DNA of 56,490 nucleotides, from positions 1 to 56,490 of the IMG/VR virus record IMGVR_UViG_3300038441_001278. The stretch is one strand, 5' to 3'. Positions 11,003 through 44,804 of this stretch are shown here, one piece after another. The DNA is from a virus. Numbering within the stretch: position 1 is the first letter of the stretch; every line of letters starts with the position of its first letter. The notes beneath the pieces were generated by a model. It did not search any database, was not told the DNA's origin, and saw nothing but the letters and a program-made list of their open reading frames with translations. A program made the translations under genes and the position numbers.

Positions 11003-13348
11003 ATGAGTGACAACGAGACTCAGCAAGATGTTAAATATAAATACATCTGCGGACCGAACCAAATCCATCCTGCGCTGGTGGGTGTCAGTAACAACCTGAT
11101 TCTGTTCCCGTGGTCGGCTTCTGCTGGTCGTCTGTACATGGCCGGCAACATGATTCCGAAGTCGGTAGTTACCTCGGGTGCCGATGAGCGCATGATGGTG
11201 ACTGGCTTTGAGTGGAAACAAGGTTACGCTCAAACTGCTCGCCAGATTGTAGCGCCAGCCAACATGCAAGTGGAAGAAGTGTTCTTCGTGGGGAGCCAAG
11301 ACCCGCGTGAGATGACTGACGCCTGGAACAAAGTGTACGTCATTTATAAGAATGACGAAAAGAACATGTACGACATTCTTGAACTCCCCCGGTACAACAC
11401 ACAGAACACATATGTGGGGTTCGAGTTTGTCTACGACAAAGACGTGATGCGCAAGCTGATGTCGCCACTGGCCACCTTCCCGAAAGGCACGGTCTTCGCC
11501 AAGTCCCCACGGATCAGCGAAAGCGGCGAATGGTGCTTCGGCATGAACACCCGCGTTGCAGCGATCTCCAGCCACGTTACCGAGGAGGATGCAATTCAGC
11601 TGACTCGATCGTACGCTGAAGAACGTTTGAAGTGCATGTTCAAGCACGAACGTGGTTTCCAGTGGAACGAGGAAGAATTCGTTCCGTTGATGCTTTACAA
11701 AGATGCACAAGGTAATGACTGCCCGTTCCCACAATCGGGTCAGCGCATTCGTGAAGACGGCATCGTCATGGGCTTCCGTCGTCGCATCACCGAGAACTCC
11801 TTGGTGTCGTTGACACGTAAAGCTTTGCGTATCCCGGACCTGACCTACGATCAACTGTTTTACGCTCCGATCAACTCGGAAGTAATGTCGGTCGAAGTGT
11901 TGAGTGACCGCATGAAGAACCGCGCTAACAATCGCGGTACGGATTACATCGAGCAGCCACACAACATTCTTCTCGAGCGTTATGAGAAGAAGCAGAACGA
12001 GATGCACAACAACGTGATTCGTTGGTACGAACGTCGTATCGCGAACAACCGTGGTAATGACATCCCGATCACGCTGGAACTGGATACCTTCATTAACTCG
12101 GCATACGGCAACTACACCCGTAATACCAACACTGGCAAGATCAACCCACTCAGCCGGGGGATCAAGCGGGTCAAGTTGAAGGACTGGAACATTAATATCC
12201 TGCTGCGCGAAATCGTGCCTGGCAAGATCAAGTTCAAGTTCGCAGGGTTGAACGGCGACAAAGGTGTTGCGGTGAGCATCATCGAGGACCACATGGCGCC
12301 GACCTATGCGGACGGTACTCGTGCGGAAGTCATCATCAACAACACGCCAGCGTTCCGTCGTCAGATCTACTCGATGTTGATGGAGCTCAGTATCAACTAC
12401 ATCAACGTTAACATCCAGAAAGAAGCGCGGTTGCTTCGTAACCTGGGTCAGTACGCTGAAGCTTACGCAATGATCCTCGAGTTCTGCGAAACTGGGTTCC
12501 CGGAGTTCGGTGAGATCGTTCGGGCGACCTACACCAATGCGGACGACATTAAGGATTACGTCGACCACTGCTGCGACAAGATGATCTCTATCCATGTTCG
12601 CAGTAACACCCGGTTGTATGGTGTGGCGATCATCAACGCCCTGCGCGCGAAGTATCCCTTCAAACCGCAGAAGGCAACCTTCATGAACTCGCTGGGTGAG
12701 TACGTGGAGACCGTGAACCCAATCCTGATCAGTAACCAGCACTTCATGATGCTGGATAAGTTCGGTACGGATATGTCGGCTCAGGCATTGCCTAAGTCCA
12801 ACCTGTTCGGTATGCCGGCTAAACTGAACGACAGCAGCAAGTACTCCAGCTGGCTGCGAGATCAGGGCAACCGTAACACGGGTGAAACGGAAGGTCGTCT
12901 GCGCACCAGCCAACACGGTGGTCAGGAAACGGCTAAGCAATTGGCCATGGCGTATTCACCGGATCTGCGTAAAGTGATGGTGCGCCGTATTATCCGGGCA
13001 GACGATCCGTTTAACATCGATCAGATTGTGAAGCCAGACGAGTATCAGAACAACCGGGCCGTGAAGATGGCTGCAAGTATGTTGTCTGACTCGGGTTACA
13101 CCATCCGTCATGAACTCCCGACTGACCGAACCATGGAGCCAATCAACAACCTGCTCGATATGAGCCAGTTGAGCGGCGTGGCACTCGAGTTGGCTGAGAG
13201 CGGTCTTAATAAGCCTGAACCGGAACCAGCTCCACCTGCCGAACCACGTTACTCGGGTAAGCGCTTGCCTAATCCGGTAGCATTCGGTGAAGACCTGCAC
13301 ATGACCGGGGTTACCGGCGGTACTGACAATATTTACGGGGGCTTGTAA
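11003..13348 (+). CDS. RNA polymerase beta C-terminal subunit (phiKZ gp71-73-like)
   Basis: 781 aa. Residues 418-422 (GDKGV) followed by EDHMAPTYADGT and AEVIINNT (to about 448) match the bacterial beta block 'GNKGVI..I.P.EDMPY..DGTPVDIVLNP', which lines the active centre. Upstream, residues 33-90 (IPKSVV, QIVAPANMQ) fit phiKZ-type beta. The C-terminus has a Pro/Glu linker (PEPEPAPPAEP). It overlaps the beta' C-terminal gene by one base (TAATG), the same adjacency as phiKZ gp71-73 and gp74, so this is assigned to the non-virion polymerase. In phiKZ the gene is interrupted by an intron; here the reading frame is continuous. Confidence 0.9.
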   Translation: MSDNETQQDVKYKYICGPNQIHPALVGVSNNLILFPWSASAGRLYMAGNMIPKSVVTSGADERMMVTGFEWKQGYAQTARQIVAPANMQVEEVFFVGSQDPREMTDAWNKVYVIYKNDEKNMYDILELPRYNTQNTYVGFEFVYDKDVMRKLMSPLATFPKGTVFAKSPRISESGEWCFGMNTRVAAISSHVTEEDAIQLTRSYAEERLKCMFKHERGFQWNEEEFVPLMLYKDAQGNDCPFPQSGQRIREDGIVMGFRRRITENSLVSLTRKALRIPDLTYDQLFYAPINSEVMSVEVLSDRMKNRANNRGTDYIEQPHNILLERYEKKQNEMHNNVIRWYERRIANNRGNDIPITLELDTFINSAYGNYTRNTNTGKINPLSRGIKRVKLKDWNINILLREIVPGKIKFKFAGLNGDKGVAVSIIEDHMAPTYADGTRAEVIINNTPAFRRQIYSMLMELSINYINVNIQKEARLLRNLGQYAEAYAMILEFCETGFPEFGEIVRATYTNADDIKDYVDHCCDKMISIHVRSNTRLYGVAIINALRAKYPFKPQKATFMNSLGEYVETVNPILISNQHFMMLDKFGTDMSAQALPKSNLFGMPAKLNDSSKYSSWLRDQGNRNTGETEGRLRTSQHGGQETAKQLAMAYSPDLRKVMVRRIIRADDPFNIDQIVKPDEYQNNRAVKMAASMLSDSGYTIRHELPTDRTMEPINNLLDMSQLSGVALELAESGLNKPEPEPAPPAEPRYSGKRLPNPVAFGEDLHMTGVTGGTDNIYGGL

Positions 13349-15363
13349 TGGGCATGATGCAAATTAGCCTGCGTGAATGGGCCAACCTCACTGAAGCGGA
13401 TATCCTTCGTTGTCGTGGTCACCGCCAAGCAGTAGAGGTGGTGGACGACGAAGGTAAGAAGACAATGTCCTGCCTGTTCGCGATGATGCTGACATGGCAA
13501 GGCTTGATCGTTCACCGCAAGTACAACAACGTGGCTTACTCGATTGACGAGCTGGTCCCGTCCAACAAGAATCCAGAACATAAGGAGGTGGTGTACAGCG
13601 ACGATACTCTGGCCATTCCGGTGAACTGGATTCTGGAAAGCGTTATGCCGGAGATCGATGATCCTGTTGAGACTGACAGTATCAAGCGACTGATCCACAT
13701 CTGGCAAACCAAACTCAACAACATGATTGTGGTGATGAGTGAGGCGTCGGTAATTTCGGCGACGGCTGAGTCTGTGGCCGAGCTGATGGAAGACGTCGGC
13801 ATCATGGATATCCGTGACCGTATCTTGGCGCACGAGATCAGCATTGACGATGGCGAGAAAGTGTTCAGTAACTATCTGCGTGAAGCCGAGAGTCTGAATA
13901 CCAACACCATGGCACTGCTGGCGCGGACAGGTGGCGTGAGTATCAACCAAGCATTCCAGACGACGATCATTCGTGGTTCGGTGTTTGACTTGAACAACAC
14001 CATCTTCCCGAACTCGGTTAACGTGCCGTATGCTCACGGCATCACCAACCTGGCTGACTCCTTGGGTGAACGTAACTCATCCGGTAAGTCGCTGATCAAC
14101 AACGGTAAGGGTCTGAAGGACGCTGAGTGGTTCCACCGCAAGATTCACTTGCTGTCGGCGCCGTTACACAGCATCTTGCACATGAACGACTGTGGGACGA
14201 CTGTGGGCGTTCCTATGAAGATCCTCAACATGGAGATGGCTTTGTCCTTGATGGGCAAGTACATCATCCTAGCGGACGGTTCATCGGTTCTGATTGATCA
14301 ACGCAACGTCGACACGATCAAGACCGGTGACGTCGTTACCTTCCGCAGCATGGCGTTCTGTAACTCTCACAACCCTGGCCAGCCGTGCGGTCGCTGCTAC
14401 GGCAAAATGAAGTCGACCATCCCGTTTAACGTCATGATGATGAAAGACGCGAACGTGGGAATGTACTCGGGTACTACCTTATGTAACCCGATGGGGCAGA
14501 AAATGCTCAGTACTAAGCACTACATCCGCAACGCAACCTCGCGGAAGTTTGTGCCTCACGTCCGGGACAAAGATATCATTTATACCAACGGGGATGAAAT
14601 CTTCCTGAAGGCTGAGATCTGCGTACCGGGTTCCGAGCTGATTCTGAAGTCGTCGATTGTTAAGGACCTGTCTGACCTGAAGTCGCTCGATGTATTGGAC
14701 GACGTTGGGCTGGATAAGCTCCCGTACTTCTCTGACGTTACCTTCCGCTACCAAGTGGAAGACATCATGATGGGTGGCAAGACCACGCAGCAGCATTCGG
14801 CTATCACGTCGGTGTCGTCGCGTAATGCTCGTTTCTCCTTGGACTTCCTGCGCTTCGTGCTGGATAAAGGTTGGAACACGGTGGATAAGCGCTTCATCTC
14901 CATCGACCTGTCTGATTGGAACACGCTGGCTCCGATGTTTGCCCTTCCTTATACTCGTGAGGATTTGGACATGCACCGGGCTCGTGTGGAAAACTTCATG
15001 ACCTTCAACAAGCGCAATACCGCATGGCGGAACCAAGTGGTAACGCCGAAGATCTTTGGTGAAGTATTGTCTGAGTTCTGGACACTTATTAACCAGGAGA
15101 TCAAAGGTATTAACGCAGTGCACGTAGAAGCTCTACTGTATTGCTGTCTGGCCAGAGATCCAAACAACCTGTCCTTCGCAATGGCTAACGGTTCTGGGGA
15201 TAAGTACTTCTCCAGTTTCATTAACTGCATCACCAGCCGGGGCGGAGGCGGTTTGTTAATCTTTGAGAAACAACAGAACGTTCTTAACGACCCGCGTACT
15301 TTCATGACCATGGACCGTCAAGGTTCCGTACTTGAGAGCTTCTGGGCGTTAGGTGCGTCTTAA
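13348..15363 (+). CDS. RNA polymerase beta' C-terminal subunit (phiKZ gp74-like)
   Basis: 671 aa. A complete four-cysteine zinc site of the beta' C-terminal type is visible: C282 in NDCGTTVG (bacterial 'DDCGTHEG'), then C338, C347 and C350 in a C-x8-C-x2-C-Y-G cluster. It is followed by the region matching 'GE.IG..A.QSI.EPGTQLTMRTFH' (here GMYSGTTLCNPMGQKMLSTKH, split around residues 371-391). Residues about 245-280 correspond to the segment before the zinc site that leads out of the bridge helix. With the beta' N-terminal fragment at 1-1070 it would make a full beta'. The start overlaps the stop of the beta gene, giving coupled translation. It ends in a UUCG hairpin. Confidence 0.9.
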   Translation: MGMMQISLREWANLTEADILRCRGHRQAVEVVDDEGKKTMSCLFAMMLTWQGLIVHRKYNNVAYSIDELVPSNKNPEHKEVVYSDDTLAIPVNWILESVMPEIDDPVETDSIKRLIHIWQTKLNNMIVVMSEASVISATAESVAELMEDVGIMDIRDRILAHEISIDDGEKVFSNYLREAESLNTNTMALLARTGGVSINQAFQTTIIRGSVFDLNNTIFPNSVNVPYAHGITNLADSLGERNSSGKSLINNGKGLKDAEWFHRKIHLLSAPLHSILHMNDCGTTVGVPMKILNMEMALSLMGKYIILADGSSVLIDQRNVDTIKTGDVVTFRSMAFCNSHNPGQPCGRCYGKMKSTIPFNVMMMKDANVGMYSGTTLCNPMGQKMLSTKHYIRNATSRKFVPHVRDKDIIYTNGDEIFLKAEICVPGSELILKSSIVKDLSDLKSLDVLDDVGLDKLPYFSDVTFRYQVEDIMMGGKTTQQHSAITSVSSRNARFSLDFLRFVLDKGWNTVDKRFISIDLSDWNTLAPMFALPYTREDLDMHRARVENFMTFNKRNTAWRNQVVTPKIFGEVLSEFWTLINQEIKGINAVHVEALLYCCLARDPNNLSFAMANGSGDKYFSSFINCITSRGGGGLLIFEKQQNVLNDPRTFMTMDRQGSVLESFWALGAS

Positions 15364-15422: not shown

Positions 15423-17726
15423 ATGCGCCACGTTGCCACTATCTCGCGAGCGCATAACTACCTCCGAATCTTTGGGTTCTACGGTGAGTTCGCCGCACAA
15501 GTAATACTGCCTTTCTGCCGGGCCAACCTTTACAAAATGGGGAAAGTGCCAATTCCTGGTACCGGTAGAACAAAGATGGAAGTGACTCATGTGTTTGCTC
15601 GGTCGAACTTTGACAAGAGTGAATACCGTCTCCCCGCAAGTTTGTTAAAAGAGTTCATCGCGTTCGCTCAGTATAAAGGCTATAACCCGTCTCGGGTTGA
15701 GCTGGTAACTGAACCGGAATTGGTTGGCAAGGACGTTCGATTTAAGTTTCGTCCTGGTTACGAGAACACCCGTCCCGGTCAGGATGAGTGGGTTAACTAC
15801 CAATTGGCTCCGGGTGCTGTGAAGGTTAACAACGCCTCCACAGGTTACGGTAAAGCGCTGGCCAACAGTACTCCGGTCAGAACAGCTAAAGGTTGGAAGC
15901 CCATCGGACAGGTCAAGATGAACGATCTGGTCATGGCACCTGACGGCTCTCACACGTACGTCACAGGGGTTTTCCCTCAAGGCGTGACACCAACGTACAA
16001 GCTGACCTTCGAGGACGGCAGGACGGTTGTGGCGTGTCCTGAGCACCAGTGGGAAGTCAGAGCGGATGGCTGGTCAAAATGGGAGGTTAAGACCACCCAA
16101 GAGTTAGTGGACAGCCCAGAGAAAGTCTGGCGCATTCCTTTAACGGCCAGTGAACGCAATCCTGATCGCGGCGACATTATCGACGCCTACCTGATCGGGC
16201 AAACAGATCGGTTCCTGACCGAGAAGTACCTCGAGGGTTCTCACTCTCAGCGCATGGGGTTGCTTCGTGGGTTGTTGGACGCTACAGGTGAGCCACAGGC
16301 CGATGGGTCAATCATCTATCGCTCCGACTACGGTACTAGCGCCAAGATGGTTCGTGATCTGGTGTGGAGTGTAGGGGGTGTTGCAAAAGCCCATTACTCT
16401 GATGGTGATAATTACGTTGTGATTACCCACCGGACCCCACATGTCTTGTTCACCTTTCAAGAAAAGGTGGAAGCGATGTGGGAACACGACAACCGTGATC
16501 TGGCGTTGCGGATTAATCGGATTGAGATCGATCGACCAGTTGAAACCACCTGCATCTCGGTGGAGCACGAATCAAAGTGCTTTGTGATCAAGGACTACCT
16601 CGTTACGCACAACACCTACATGGGCCTTCGGACAATGTTGTTGATGGGCAAGCGAACCCTGATTACGATTCAACCTCGGTACATCACCACTTGGATTAAA
16701 GCCTTGGGTGACATCATCGACCTGCAACCTGCCGATGTCTTGGTGTGGGAACAGGACCTGTGCTTGTTGCAGGAAGTGATGCTGAGGGGTGAGATCGATC
16801 CGAAGGTCATCATTGTGCCGATGACACGCATTGACGTGCACTTCAGGAACGAGAAGAAGGATCCCAAGACTCCGAGCCTAGACAAGATCTTTGAGAGCCT
16901 CCAGTGCGGTCTCAGGATCATTGACGAAGGTCACGAGGCGATTCACCAGGTCTGCATTTCGTTGATGTATGGTAACTTCCCCAAGCTGGTTGTGTTGTCT
17001 GCAACTCTGTCTGGCGATGATCCGTTCATTAACAAGATCTATCGGATCCTCTTCCCAATTCACATCCGGCTTAAGGAACCGGAGCCTGAGAACTACATCG
17101 ACATTGTCGCTTATCTGTACGACATCAACCCGCGACGTTATAACCTGAAGACCCAGCAGTTCGGTAGTTACAATGACCTAACCTGGGAACAGAGCATTCT
17201 GAACAATCGGACGGTCACCAACTTCTACTTTGAAGTGGCCAAGAAGATGTTCGAGGAGTATTACCTCGAATGCCGAGAGGAGGGCACTAAGTGTCTGTTC
17301 TTCTTCTCCAGGGTCAGCATGTGCGAGGCTATGCTCGAGATGTTCCTTAAGGAATACCCCGGCATGGACATCGTCACCTTCCACGGCGAGGATACCAAAG
17401 GTAAAGACGCCGATAAGTTGAAGTACATGAAACACGAGGTGGTCATTACGACACCTGGTAGTTGCGGAACGGGTAAGGACATTGATGGTTTAGTAACTGT
17501 GCTCTGTATGCATACGGTCGGTTCGACTCAACGCAACAAACAAATGATTGGGCGTTTACGTGACAAGGCGTTGAAGACATTCGACAACCGCATCACCCCA
17601 CGGTTCGTATTCGGGGTGTGTGCTAGCCAGCCTAAGCATAAAGAGTACTTCCGCAAACGTGAAGTCGCCTTTGAGGCGAAGAAGAAAACGTTTAAGGTGA
17701 TTGACTCTAACTGCGCACTCCAGTAG
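15423..17726 (+). CDS. UvsW-like superfamily 2 DNA helicase precursor with intein
   Basis: 767 aa as encoded, about 514 aa after intein removal, close to T4 UvsW in size. The Walker A motif reads S-T-G-Y-G-K (residues 139-144), then a 253-residue intein, then T398, so the P-loop is completed only after splicing. Other SF2 motifs: DEGH (501-504, motif II), SAT (526-528, motif III) and QMIGRLR (707-713, motif VI). UvsW-type enzymes unwind R-loops and branch-migrate recombination and replication forks; in phiKZ a helicase gene also follows gp74. The frame continues intact across both intein borders. Confidence 0.9.
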   Translation: MRHVATISRAHNYLRIFGFYGEFAAQVILPFCRANLYKMGKVPIPGTGRTKMEVTHVFARSNFDKSEYRLPASLLKEFIAFAQYKGYNPSRVELVTEPELVGKDVRFKFRPGYENTRPGQDEWVNYQLAPGAVKVNNASTGYGKALANSTPVRTAKGWKPIGQVKMNDLVMAPDGSHTYVTGVFPQGVTPTYKLTFEDGRTVVACPEHQWEVRADGWSKWEVKTTQELVDSPEKVWRIPLTASERNPDRGDIIDAYLIGQTDRFLTEKYLEGSHSQRMGLLRGLLDATGEPQADGSIIYRSDYGTSAKMVRDLVWSVGGVAKAHYSDGDNYVVITHRTPHVLFTFQEKVEAMWEHDNRDLALRINRIEIDRPVETTCISVEHESKCFVIKDYLVTHNTYMGLRTMLLMGKRTLITIQPRYITTWIKALGDIIDLQPADVLVWEQDLCLLQEVMLRGEIDPKVIIVPMTRIDVHFRNEKKDPKTPSLDKIFESLQCGLRIIDEGHEAIHQVCISLMYGNFPKLVVLSATLSGDDPFINKIYRILFPIHIRLKEPEPENYIDIVAYLYDINPRRYNLKTQQFGSYNDLTWEQSILNNRTVTNFYFEVAKKMFEEYYLECREEGTKCLFFFSRVSMCEAMLEMFLKEYPGMDIVTFHGEDTKGKDADKLKYMKHEVVITTPGSCGTGKDIDGLVTVLCMHTVGSTQRNKQMIGRLRDKALKTFDNRITPRFVFGVCASQPKHKEYFRKREVAFEAKKKTFKVIDSNCALQ
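15855..16613 (+). mobile_element. Class 3 intein (253 aa) in helicase Walker A motif
   Basis: Intein residues 145-397 of the precursor, inserted between K144 and T398 of GYGK/T. The first residue is Ala, not Cys or Ser (ALANSTPVRTAKGWKPIG). The class 3 WCT triad is present: Trp210 two residues after block B His208 (CPEHQW), Cys377 in block F (TTCISVE), and Thr395 in block G (VTHN), with terminal Asn397 and +1 Thr398. The central part keeps one LAGLIDADG-like motif, LLRGLLDATG (280-289), where the usual Asp-Gly is Thr-Gly, so the homing endonuclease is probably dead or a remnant. Splicing is predicted to use the block F Cys as first nucleophile. Confidence 0.88.
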
Positions 17727-26350: not shown

Positions 26351-27424
26351 ATGGATCCTCTTGCTCTTGTACCCGGTGAAGAAAACGAAGTTTCGTCGAT
26401 CCCGGATATCCCTCATGTCGAAATCATGTTCGACGCCATGGACGACACTATCGGCGGCGTGACCGGCGCTGAAGGTTTCGGTCTGACTGAAGCCCAGCGT
26501 TATGCTGAAGGCGTTCTGATGGCCAGCGGTACTCTGCGCGCCAGCTCCATCGACGGCAACGAAAGCTTCTTCAGCGCTGTTGGCGGCGGCTTGAAGGCTA
26601 CCTACGACTACATCGTCAAGATGTTCAAGTCGGTCTGGGAGTTCTTCTTCAAGCGCGACGTGGGCAAAGAAGTTGACGCGGCTGTTGCCGAAGTCAAGGA
26701 ACTGGCTGCTGAAGTAGCGGCGGTTGGCACCGGTAACGACAAGCAGATCGAAGACCAGTTCGACAAGATGCGCAAAGCATCGATCGCGGCTGCTGCCGAA
26801 TCCGACAAGAACGCTTTCATCGGTCGATTGAAAGAAGCCGGCCTGGATCTCACCGAGAAGAAAGCACTCGTGAAAGAGATGGCGAATGAGTTGCCGAAAG
26901 TCAACAAAGACGCCCAGAACCGCTTCAAGCTGGCGGCCATGGCCGTGATCGACGCCAAAGGCAAGTACATCGGCGTAGTCGAGAAAGCTGAAGGCGACGA
27001 AGGCGGCAAGTTCGAACTCACCGAAGACCTGGCCAAGGACATCGTTGGCGAAGCCAAGTCCATCGTGCCGAAAGAACAGGCCGTCATCACCGCGCTGAAA
27101 AACCGCGAAGAAGTCAAGTCCCAGTCTGACGCCGCTGTACTGGCCAAGCTGATCATCGACAACCTGAACGGCGTTAAAACCCTGGCCGCCAGCTTCTCCA
27201 AACACGCTCCTCAGGTCAGCACGAAGATCAAGGAATGCCAAGCGTTCCTGGCCAAGACCGACAAGGACGACAAGGGCGACTGGGTTGCCAAGCACAAGAA
27301 CACCGAGCTGGGCATGCTGCGCGGCATTCTCTCCTTCACCACCGCCATTGCGCAGTCGATGAAGAAGACGATCTCCGTCCAGGTTGATCTGCAACACCGC
27401 ACCAATAAGGTCTTCGGCCTGTAA
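26351..27424 (+). CDS. Head inner-body-type protein, processed (paralogue 1)
   Basis: 357 aa; AAGGAAG precedes the ATG. It shares with the next gene an N-terminal propeptide (AMDDTIGGVTGAEGFGLTEAQ region), then D-G-N-E71/S72-F-F and an aromatic amphipathic helix (ATYDYIVKMFKSVWEFFFK), then a long Ala/Lys/Glu helical body. Two candidate processing sites, G-A-E41/G and G-N-E71/S, fit the (A/G/S)-x-E motif known for the phiKZ/201phi2-1 prohead protease. In phiKZ such proteins form the inner body around which DNA is spooled and are largely ejected into the host. Function by family context only. Confidence 0.78.
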   Translation: MDPLALVPGEENEVSSIPDIPHVEIMFDAMDDTIGGVTGAEGFGLTEAQRYAEGVLMASGTLRASSIDGNESFFSAVGGGLKATYDYIVKMFKSVWEFFFKRDVGKEVDAAVAEVKELAAEVAAVGTGNDKQIEDQFDKMRKASIAAAAESDKNAFIGRLKEAGLDLTEKKALVKEMANELPKVNKDAQNRFKLAAMAVIDAKGKYIGVVEKAEGDEGGKFELTEDLAKDIVGEAKSIVPKEQAVITALKNREEVKSQSDAAVLAKLIIDNLNGVKTLAASFSKHAPQVSTKIKECQAFLAKTDKDDKGDWVAKHKNTELGMLRGILSFTTAIAQSMKKTISVQVDLQHRTNKVFGL

Positions 27425-27506: not shown

Positions 27507-28574
27507 ATGGAAGCTAGCGAAGATTACGGTCAGATTGATAACGACCACCTGGAAACCATCTTTGTTGCAATGGACGACACCATGGGTGGCGTTACTGGTA
27601 GCGAAGGCTTTGGCTTGACCCGTGCTCAGGAATACACCTACGCGGTGTTGGGTGCAAACGACAGCCTGACCCGTCAGCAGAAGGTTGATGGTAACGAAAG
27701 CTTCTTCGGTTCTATCGGCGATGGCCTTAAAGCTGTCTGGGAATACGTCCAGAAGTTGTTCAAGTCTATCTGGGGTTTCTTCTTCGGTAAGAAGGAAGGT
27801 GGTGCTCAGGCTGAGATCGATAACACCAAAGAAGCGCTGACTGTGGCGAAGGTTGCGCTCGAAAAGCCATCGGGGGACACGAAAGCCGTTCAACACAAGC
27901 TGGTGGAAAGCATGCAGAAGGTTGTTGCTGATCCAGTGACCACCCCTGCCGAAGTTAAGGAAGTCCAGGAACTCATCCAGGTCATCCAAGCCACCCCGGC
28001 TCCTTCTCCTGCTGAAACCAAGAAGGTCGCCGAGAAGTTCGCCAAGCTTAACCACAAGCAGCAAAAGAAGTTGCAAACTGGCCTTAAGCTCGTGAAAGAG
28101 AAAGGTGCCGGCTTGGTTGCTCACATTACCAAGCTCCACACTGATGTGGAAATCCATGTGGGTGCGAATGAAAGCTACAACTTCTACAAGCACCTGATCA
28201 CCGAGATCTACAACAATGATATCTCGGCCATCCGTTCCGCCATCAACCACATCGACGGCGCAATGATCGTGAGCGATATGGGTCAGGGTGCTCGTGTGCT
28301 CGAAGTGCTTCAGCATCAGATGAAAACCATCGACAGCATTAACGGTTTCATCAAAGCCAACAAGCACAACCTGGAGCATCGTATCACCGAGTGCGAAAAG
28401 GCTTTGAGCTGGTCGGATAAGCATGCTGAACGTAAAGCCGGCGCCCGTGCCGAGCTGGCTGTGGCGAAGGACATGATGATTGCGATCAACAGCACCGTCA
28501 GCTACGTCCACACCACTTGCCTGACCATCCAAAGCCTGTGCGACACCGTGCGTCGTATCTTCGGCCTTAAGTAA
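27507..28574 (+). CDS. Head inner-body-type protein, processed (paralogue 2)
   Basis: 355 aa, the closest relative of the preceding gene: both have AMDDT-x-G-G-V-T-G-x-E-G-F-G-L-T near residue 22 and G-N-E-S-F-F near 62. Candidate processing sites are G-S-E33/G and G-N-E64/S. After the second site comes the aromatic helix (AVWEYVQKLFKSIWGFFFG), then Lys/Glu/Ala-rich helices. The shared N-termini imply a recent tandem duplication with separate terminators and promoters. Expected in the head interior; identity as an inner-body protein is inferred from motif and cluster. Confidence 0.78.
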   Translation: MEASEDYGQIDNDHLETIFVAMDDTMGGVTGSEGFGLTRAQEYTYAVLGANDSLTRQQKVDGNESFFGSIGDGLKAVWEYVQKLFKSIWGFFFGKKEGGAQAEIDNTKEALTVAKVALEKPSGDTKAVQHKLVESMQKVVADPVTTPAEVKEVQELIQVIQATPAPSPAETKKVAEKFAKLNHKQQKKLQTGLKLVKEKGAGLVAHITKLHTDVEIHVGANESYNFYKHLITEIYNNDISAIRSAINHIDGAMIVSDMGQGARVLEVLQHQMKTIDSINGFIKANKHNLEHRITECEKALSWSDKHAERKAGARAELAVAKDMMIAINSTVSYVHTTCLTIQSLCDTVRRIFGLK

Positions 28575-43556: not shown

Positions 43557-44804
43557 ATGAACATTCTTGATCGCTACAAGGGTTTCGAAGAACTGGAAAT
43601 GGGCGGCGCTGCCGACAACGTAGTTATCGAAGCCGGTGCTGAAGATTCGGTTCGCGCTGAAGTCGCCGAAGTTCAGGTAGTCCTGGAGCAACAAGGCCAG
43701 GAAATCGAAGAGCTGCGTGAAGAAGTCAAGCAGCAGGACGAAGCCGTCGAAGAAATCCAGGAAGTGGTTGAAGGCCTCGAATGCCTGATCAGCTCCGGCC
43801 AGTTCAACTCCACCGCTTTCGCCAGCATGTACAACCGTGCGGCCAAGCTGAACACCAAGCTGGGCGGCGCTTCCATCGAGCGTTGCGGCGTTGAATCCAT
43901 GTCCGATGCGGCCACCGCTCAGATCATGGCTCGCAGCGGCATGGAAGGCTTCATGGAAACCGTGAAAGGTTACGCCAAGAAAGCCATCGAAGTCATCAAG
44001 CACATCTTCAACACCGTGATCAACTTCTTCGTCGGCCTGTTCAACGCCGCTGAAAAGCTGAGCCGTCGCCATGACCAACTGGTCACTCGCGTCACCGCGG
44101 CCGAGAAGGTCAAGGAAAAGATCAAGCTGGGCGGCTGGAACGTCCTGTTCGACTACGAGAAAGGCGGTCTGAACAAAGACCCTGAAGGCTGGACTGCCAC
44201 CAAAGGCGCCCTGGCTACTTTCGCTGGTATCGCCAAGTCGGCTGCCAAGGTCGATCTGTCGTCCTTCAACAGCGCTTACGCTTCCCTGCTGGCCGCACTC
44301 AAGAAGGACGCCAAGTCCGACGTGAACGCCGGCGAGAAGAGCGAAGGCGACAAGAAGACCCTGATCGGCATGTCGGCTGGCGTTCGCGTTCACGCCGAGA
44401 TGAAAGACGGCCTGGCGAAAGATCTGAAAGAAGCAGCTGAAATGGCTCGCTCGATCAAGATCTTCTTCGGCACCGGCGACACCTCCAAGCTGACCAGCGG
44501 CGAAGTTGCTGCCAAGGCTGACAAAGGCGCTCTGACTGCTGCCCTGGGCAAAGTCAAAGCAACCGTTACCGCCATCCGCAACGACAAAGTCGCAGCTGCC
44601 TTCTCGAAGTCGCAGCGTGACCAGGTCATCGGCTCCCTGAACGTCCTGAAAGCGGACGACAAGGAAAAGGCTGAAGAAGTCAACGCTCAGATCCAGGTTG
44701 TACGTTCCGTGTTCGCGACTTCGTCGTCGATCGCTCAGGCCGTCAACAAGCAAGTGATCCGTAGCGCCGGCTGGACCCTGGACGCCGTTGCAGCTCACGT
44801 CTAA
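43557..44804 (+). CDS. Head inner-body-type protein, processed (paralogue 6)
   Basis: 415 aa; AAGGA precedes the ATG. The propeptide is highly acidic with a Glu/Gln coiled coil (about residues 35-75). Candidate sites are G-V-E113/S and G-M-E130/G-F-M, the latter followed by the aromatic helix region (KHIFNTVINFFVGLFN, 147-162). The mature body is rich in Ala, Lys and Asp and is probably abundant: its codons are the most strongly C/G-ending in the cluster, which suggests high expression. A strong terminator follows. Confidence 0.78.
   Translation: MNILDRYKGFEELEMGGAADNVVIEAGAEDSVRAEVAEVQVVLEQQGQEIEELREEVKQQDEAVEEIQEVVEGLECLISSGQFNSTAFASMYNRAAKLNTKLGGASIERCGVESMSDAATAQIMARSGMEGFMETVKGYAKKAIEVIKHIFNTVINFFVGLFNAAEKLSRRHDQLVTRVTAAEKVKEKIKLGGWNVLFDYEKGGLNKDPEGWTATKGALATFAGIAKSAAKVDLSSFNSAYASLLAALKKDAKSDVNAGEKSEGDKKTLIGMSAGVRVHAEMKDGLAKDLKEAAEMARSIKIFFGTGDTSKLTSGEVAAKADKGALTAALGKVKATVTAIRNDKVAAAFSKSQRDQVIGSLNVLKADDKEKAEEVNAQIQVVRSVFATSSSIAQAVNKQVIRSAGWTLDAVAAHV

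Follow-up and report, generated by a model that had tools for sequence, protein, structure and literature searches.

An analysis of a 56,490-nucleotide stretch of viral DNA (hereafter the window; positions 1 to 56,490 of IMG/VR virus record IMGVR_UViG_3300038441_001278) indicates that its gene for a superfamily 2 (SF2) helicase of a jumbo phage is interrupted, within the P-loop, by a cis-splicing class 3 intein whose homing endonuclease appears dead and of which one half has apparently been kept as a support; this reading, drawn from sequence and from a predicted structure, is given a probability of about 0.86. The SF2 DNA helicase precursor of 767 amino acids (aa) is encoded at 15423..17726, on the plus strand like every feature of the gene given below, and the intein of 253 aa, with Ala first and Thr-His-Asn last, at 15855..16613 (precursor residues 145-397). 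The junctions read ...NNASTGYGK / ALANSTPV...FVIKDYLVTHN / TYMGL, and the insert separates K144 from T398 of the Walker A motif ASTGYGK/T. The N-extein (15423..15854) has the Walker A Lys144 (A138-STGY-GK) as its last residue, where aligned intein-free relatives run from GK directly into T or S, and the C-extein (16614..17726, stop codon included) begins with Thr398, which is both the end of Walker A and the putative +1 nucleophile. A first-pass annotation had delimited the same insert, with its Ala start and its VTHN end before Thr, between the Lys and the Thr of the P-loop, and proved exact to the residue; the spliced length of 514 aa that it gave is what the N- and C-exteins add up to.

The insert is identified, from its residues and its predicted fold, as a complete class 3 intein at the classic P-loop Lys/Thr (K/T) site. 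Class 3 inteins are defined by a WCT triplet at block positions B:12, F:4 and G:5 (PMC5050341). In the N-terminal splicing half (intein residues 1-97, blocks A and B, 15855..16145; boundary drawn by eye, HINT fold match), position 1 is Ala145 and offers no nucleophile, the block-B TxxH position holds Cys205 (intein Cys61, in CPEH; 16035..16037), and His208 (the block-B catalytic base), Gln209 and Trp210 (the W of WCT) stand at 16044..16052. The C-terminal splicing half (intein residues 216-253, blocks F and G, 16500..16613; boundary drawn by eye, alignment) carries Cys377 (intein Cys233; 16551..16553), which is the predicted block F branch-point nucleophile and the C of WCT, and then Thr395 (the T of WCT), the penultimate His396 and the terminal, cyclising Asn397 (16605..16613), followed by Thr398 at the +1 position, where Cys, Ser or Thr is allowed. 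The three residues of the triplet are those named in the first-pass annotation, and the columns of His, Trp, Cys, Thr, His and Asn are invariant in 54 of 54 inteins from four host genes. This comparison covers 20 regions and phage EL; the two inteins of phage GXNNE2 and those of G012 were left out, as was L318 (L numbers being our own handles), whose flanks are unlike the host gene and whose end is VTR instead of VTHN. A further 78-row set (A5) was hand-picked mostly from pattern scans in which residues of blocks F and G formed part of the patterns and the top 80 rows of each scan were retained, so that its invariance is partly built in. A class 1 intein was rejected because position 1 is Ala and a Cys stands in block F, and a class 2 intein because the WCT is complete.

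Alignment, profile and fold tests agree with the residues in assigning the insert to class 3, as the first-pass annotation had done. Searched alone against the PDB, the window intein matched 6riz (E 5.3e-09), 6bs8_A (E 6.9e-08) and 6rix_A (E 8.4e-07) with its N-terminal half only. A 17-row intein profile matched 6riz, 6qaz, 6rix, 6bs8 and 6riy, all at 5e-14 or better, with E values from 5e-14 to 7e-19 for the class 3 structures 6rix, 6riy and 6bs8 and the WCT-grafted gp41-1 structure 6riz; its best-matching stretch is the N-terminal splicing half. The NCBIfam DnaB model PRK07773 gave an E value of 1.3e-04, far under its cut-off. An AlphaFold2 model of the window intein, made with 78 aligned relatives, has a mean pLDDT of 96.1 and a pTM of 0.92; its top match in fold comparisons is PI-SceI (Z 21.8, 251 residues aligned), and it fits 6bs8_C, a class 3 DnaB intein from M. 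smegmatis, with Z 21.0 (1.6 A, 123 of 125 residues). Within the text open to it, a literature search brought up no account of this helicase intein from these phages, and in the available part of PMC6690015, on Erwinia jumbo phages, inteins are named in the reference list only.

The host of the intein is identified by homology and motifs as the SF2 helicase of a jumbo phage. The precursor matches PHROG 16 'DNA helicase' over residues 9-744 (E 3.5e-43) and, in its C-terminal part, Pfam Helicase_C (E 8.1e-06), and a C-extein profile matches a FANCM chain (E 2.4e-06) and XPB chains. The motifs DEGH (a DEAH-type box), SATL, CGTGKDI and QMIGRLR were read from the sequence; once spliced, the protein would thus combine Walker A, a DEAH-type box and SF2 motifs with homology to phage helicases. 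The label 'UvsW-like' is the deposited annotation of a relative, Klebsiella phage Miami, and a name only. The helicase locus with 2500 bases on each side recurs, without a single base difference, within a virus record of 231,788 bases, and genes nearby encode pieces of a multisubunit RNA polymerase, a DNA polymerase and virion proteins. A phage search matched 532 records, 164 of them from Mycobacterium; the best 60 of the 532 are large-genome phages with hosts other than Mycobacterium. Phage GXNNE2 is classified as Chimalliviridae, Elvirus, and these phages are presumably phiKZ-like and nucleus-forming.

The insert is not a product of chance, because THN directly precedes the C-extein on its 5' side in 26 of 77 helicase loci, others being continuous through GKT or GKS; these loci were kept from the best 80 of 109 places found with the C-extein. 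A set of 81 helicases was assembled from 17 rows (the window and 16 named loci) and 75 contig loci less 11 duplicates, so that exact duplicates are removed and near-copies still included, with L001 and L012 (broken reading frames) and L075 and L113 (fragments) left out. An intein occupies the site in 32 of the 81, always as GK/intein/T, and is lacking in 49; the 32 come from the extein search and from named phage records, a THN junction serving as the sign of occupancy in viral contigs. GK is followed by Thr in all 32 occupied helicases, and in the 49 empty ones by Thr (35), Ser (9) or Gly (5). On a quick tree of the host gene the state of the site changes at least 16 times, against 25 in shuffles. 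The intein-free alleles in related phages for which the first-pass annotation proposed to look do exist, even among near-identical genes: the intein is precisely present or absent between EL and GXNNE2 (exteins 97.7% identical), VP4B and pTD1 (92.8%) and Rebecca and L088 (98.3%). Helicase-site inteins range in length from 143 to 364 aa and begin with Ala, Met, Leu, Glu, Ser or Cys, a variety that fits a class not using residue 1 as a nucleophile. One site thus offers a natural series among related jumbo phages, from full-length inteins whose endonuclease looks intact (9 of 32), through shorter inteins with a dead one, the smallest of 143 aa, to empty alleles (49 of 81). Cultured phages, EL for example, could therefore be used to test the homing cycle directly and to ask why a dead endonuclease half is conserved.

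Some members of this series were noted for features of their own. The 143-aa inteins of L099 and L100 are the shortest found at the helicase site. L112 (Cys first) and L095 and L051 (Ser first) have a complete WCT all the same, and are possible intermediates between class 1 and class 3. In L058, L061, L062, L063, L066 and L079, Walker A reads GGGKG or GVGKG and the Thr or Ser of the intein site is lost, which could represent an intein-resistant allele or a remodelled Walker A. The reading frame of the helicase gene is broken in L001 (vB_PQ1) and L012 (Salmonella phage SA002); L001 also has repeats within the C-terminal half of the helicase, which looks like an assembly problem.

The steps of splicing are taken from the class 3 mechanism. 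Cys377, activated by His208 and Thr395, would attack the bond between Lys144 and Ala145, and the N-extein would be transferred from Cys377 to Thr398; cyclisation of Asn397 would free the intein, and an acyl shift would link K144 to T398, yielding a 514-aa helicase with Walker A intact. It follows from the position of the insert that the ATPase activity of the helicase should be wholly dependent on splicing; a P-loop intein in RadA of P. horikoshii disrupts ATPase function (PMC6195587). The intein would be retained since its imprecise loss would kill the helicase, and precise loss or replacement would occur through recombination.

Between the splicing halves lies what appears to be a catalytically dead half homing endonuclease, a single LAGLIDADG subdomain (intein residues 98-215, 16146..16499). 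The first-pass annotation had described a degraded LAGLIDADG motif, and the damage is confirmed: LLRGLLDATG (block E, 16260..16289) is the second motif, with its catalytic Asp replaced by Thr at intein residue 144, and the first motif (block C) is deleted besides. In alignment with full-length inteins, a stub of block C, DAYLIG (16182..16199), is left, and the remainder of the motif and the core following it are deleted. Among the helicase-site inteins, all 9 that exceed 340 aa have the catalytic Asp of motif 2, and none of the 23 shorter ones does. Pfam PF14528 (LAGLIDADG_3) matches 5 of 5 full-length relatives tested and does not match the window intein. With motif 1 deleted and the motif 2 Asp changed to Thr, the features of an active DOD (LAGLIDADG) endonuclease, namely two LAGLIDADG motifs, or a single one in a homodimer, with a catalytic acid in each, are missing, and because the LAGLIDADG_3 match is absent as well, the homing endonuclease of the window intein is judged to be dead.

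The surviving half is nevertheless predicted to be ordered. The AlphaFold2 model places helix, strand, strand, helix, strand, strand and helix in that order in intein residues 98-215, which is the pattern of one LAGLIDADG subdomain, and the corresponding part of the 78-row profile matches the endonuclease region of PI-SceI (E 3e-10). Between the window and L038, omega by NG86 is 0.119 for the half-endonuclease, 0.082 for the N-terminal and 0.099 for the C-terminal splicing half, and 0.098 for the C-extein; in the 10 pairs among L043, L044, L045, L047 and L083 it is 0.004-0.097 for the half-endonuclease (C-extein 0.044-0.106). In the closest comparable pairs, the half-endonuclease is therefore under purifying selection. 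Because a dead nuclease is under such selection, a role in folding or splicing is suggested, by analogy with other inteins in which HINT and endonuclease are interdependent (PMC8966425). The half-endonuclease would accordingly have been retained because it helps the HINT domain to fold or to splice. With its half-endonuclease predicted to be ordered, this class 3 intein of 253 aa may also prove useful as a splicing scaffold.

Several observations weigh against the interpretation given above. Between the window and L056, omega is 0.186 for the half-endonuclease versus 0.040 for the C-extein, and in pairs with L059 it reaches 0.49 for the half-endonuclease; all these values are simple NG86 counts, at synonymous differences of 0.34-0.74 per site, with saturation in many of the 55 pairs. 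Most or all of the endonuclease half is gone from helicase-site inteins of 198 and 143 aa, and because these have discarded it, the half does not seem to be needed in every lineage. When the window intein was searched alone against the PDB, the two top rows, ahead of 6riz and 6bs8, were designed repeat proteins (many weak repeated matches), and the Pfam model Hom_end_hint gave a weak match to it (E 0.046), under its cut-off.

The 231,788-base record encodes two more class 3 inteins, L304 and L305, whose hosts, named through their EL homologues, are a second SF2 helicase (intein of 271 aa, at GSGK/T) and the terminase large subunit (intein of 314 aa, at PRQQGK/T). By these assignments, two SF2 helicases and the terminase of one jumbo phage are all split at the Walker A K/T by related class 3 inteins. 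The catalytic Asp is missing in all 12 terminase inteins and all 9 second-helicase inteins among the 54, and the inteins of each of these two genes lie together on one side of a branch. Phage EL has four class 3 inteins (ORF011, ORF039, ORF040 and ORF166; AJ697969), of which that of the RNA polymerase beta' gene (ORF039; L003) is full-length, with LAGLIDADG motifs apparently intact, and sits at AAGK/S, which is not a P-loop; the RNA polymerase beta' homologue of the window (13348-15363) reads NSSGKS and is intein-free at that site. The second-helicase intein L318, which lies in a 314-aa open reading frame with flanks unlike a helicase and has VTR in place of VTHN, represents decay or an assembly error.

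A regulatory switch, which the first-pass annotation had named as one possibility and in which conditional splicing (responding to redox, metal or DNA) would hold back helicase activity up to some stage of infection, is considered unlikely. A disulfide might form between the catalytic Cys233 (precursor Cys377) and intein Cys61, which occupies the block-B position in the splicing centre. The class 3 P-loop intein DnaBi1 of M. smegmatis is under redox control through a disulfide that its catalytic Cys makes within the molecule (PMC6195587), Cys61 is present in 13 of 13 inteins of the window's clade, and all three class 3 inteins of the 231,788-base record sit at the Walker A K/T of ATPases. However, only 18 of the 32 helicase-site inteins have Cys at the Cys61 position, which holds another residue in 14; all 12 terminase inteins have Gly there, and all 9 second-helicase inteins have His. 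The second noteworthy Cys of DnaBi1, Cys48, is at a different position (PMC6195587). Near-identical genes also exist as intein-free alleles, and because of these intein-free relatives a switch that the phage requires appears unlikely, Cys61 at the block-B position being only a lead for conditional splicing.

It is also quite improbable that the intein is still mobile, with its single LAGLIDADG subdomain cutting as a homodimer or a related endonuclease acting in trans. The first-pass annotation had placed the intein past its mobile phase, which holds for the dead endonuclease and not for the intein as such: the intein and host-gene trees conflict, and exchange may continue. On the extein sequences, both the intein grouping (p 8.5e-38) and a grouping of the window with L038 (p 0.008) are rejected; on the intein sequences, the extein grouping is rejected marginally (p 0.037), and a grouping of the window with L056 is not rejected (p 0.186). 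All these groups were chosen once the trees had been seen. The stronger conflict is that of L059 against the L039 group. The L059 helicase intein, which is on a long branch, is the one out of line, because the terminase and second-helicase inteins of the same phage group that phage with the phage of the window (quick tree, support 98 and 93), as the exteins do. Between the window and L056 the C-extein stands at 92% and the intein at 69%, and the possibility of an intein replacement in this pair is weakened by synonymous differences of similar size in intein and extein.

Divergence beside the site bears on mobility also. An excess within 60 bases of the site is clear in 2 of 6 pairs of occupied and empty alleles (VP4B/pTD1, p 5.4e-06; Raoultella/Miami, p 8.8e-20), with p values of 0.048 for Rebecca/L088, 0.15 for EL/GXNNE2, 1 for L091/L092 and 0.74 for L091/L096; the direction of exchange is not settled by this divergence, and the VP4B/pTD1 test did not tell which partner changed. 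Purifying selection on the subdomain in close pairs would also suit a mobile intein, but the absence of the motif 2 catalytic acid from 23 of 23 short helicase-site inteins makes a homodimeric endonuclease unlikely. As for an endonuclease in trans, scans at E 0.01 gave no match to PF14528 in the window and the 231,788-base record or to PF01844 (HNH) in 11 records, endonuclease families beyond these two not being searched. Occasional exchange by recombination, and not active homing, may account for the conflict between the trees.

That the three dead-endonuclease class 3 inteins form a joint, splicing-timed checkpoint, holding the replication and packaging motors until a shared condition such as redox is reached, is a highly speculative proposal with little likelihood; if it were true, these motors would stay off until Cys-initiated splicing proceeds. 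A dead insertion that has lost splicing and left the helicase non-functional would agree with the deletion of part of the endonuclease, but is scarcely credible given that all splicing residues are intact, that both splicing halves and the exteins are under purifying selection in close pairs, and that a HINT fold is predicted with high confidence.

The annotation of these phages was found to contain names that do not fit the genes. Many of the best 60 matched phage records carry 'terminase large subunit' as the deposited name of the helicase, which is probably a carry-over. The helicases of L006 and L016, which are without this intein, were deposited as 'terminase large subunit' plus 'intein-containing', and the intein-bearing helicases of L004 and L009 are mislabelled as 'terminase large subunit' and 'DOD-type homing endonuclease', respectively; the names of all four were probably carried over from shared inteins. 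Elsewhere in the window, adjacent open reading frames at 26351-27424 and 27507-28574, which have PHROG 21850, 33197, 33940 and 35992 in common, probably constitute a tandem duplication; an internal head protein at 43557-44804 has a weak match to PHROG 33940 too.

Among known systems, the mycobacterial class 3 inteins DnaBi1 and MchDnaB1 (6bs8, 6rix, 6riy) share with the window intein the WCT and block-B His, the absence of an N-terminal nucleophile, and the HINT fold. His208, the block-F Cys and the G-block Thr of the window intein correspond to the His-Cys-Thr catalytic triad of MchDnaB1 (PMC7664689), and DnaBi1 is likewise inserted in the P-loop of a helicase (PMC6195587). Unlike these, the window intein has an SF2 helicase and not DnaB as its host and Thr rather than Ser at +1; DnaBi1 has an unresolved linker where the window intein has its half-endonuclease (about 118 aa), and Asp62 at the TxxH position where the window intein has Cys (PMC6195587). 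The mycobacteriophage intein TerL1-a also splits the invariant Lys-Thr pair in the P-loop of a phage ATPase (PMC5050341), in a different host protein and phage group, and the available text of PMC5050341 does not state its class. A terminase K/T site is occupied in the 231,788-base record too.

The intein of the EL helicase (ORF040) resembles the window intein in gene, GK/T site, mini-intein size (248 aa) and dead endonuclease, and differs in its first residue, Met, and in having only 36% identity to it; EL differs further in its full-length RNA polymerase beta' intein at AAGK/S, a site that is empty in the window. The EL inteins are, we presume, among those in InBase. PI-SceI, the VMA1 intein, has the same arrangement of HINT and LAGLIDADG parts, but unlike the window intein it is of class 1, with an active endonuclease of two subdomains and a yeast ATPase as host. 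In the PhoVMA intein the active-site acids of the endonuclease have been lost and the architecture kept, as in the window intein, although its host is an archaeal VMA, its whole endonuclease domain is kept, and it splices without the endonuclease (PMC8966425); in the TliVMA intein, splicing is largely lost when its endonuclease is absent (PMC8966425).

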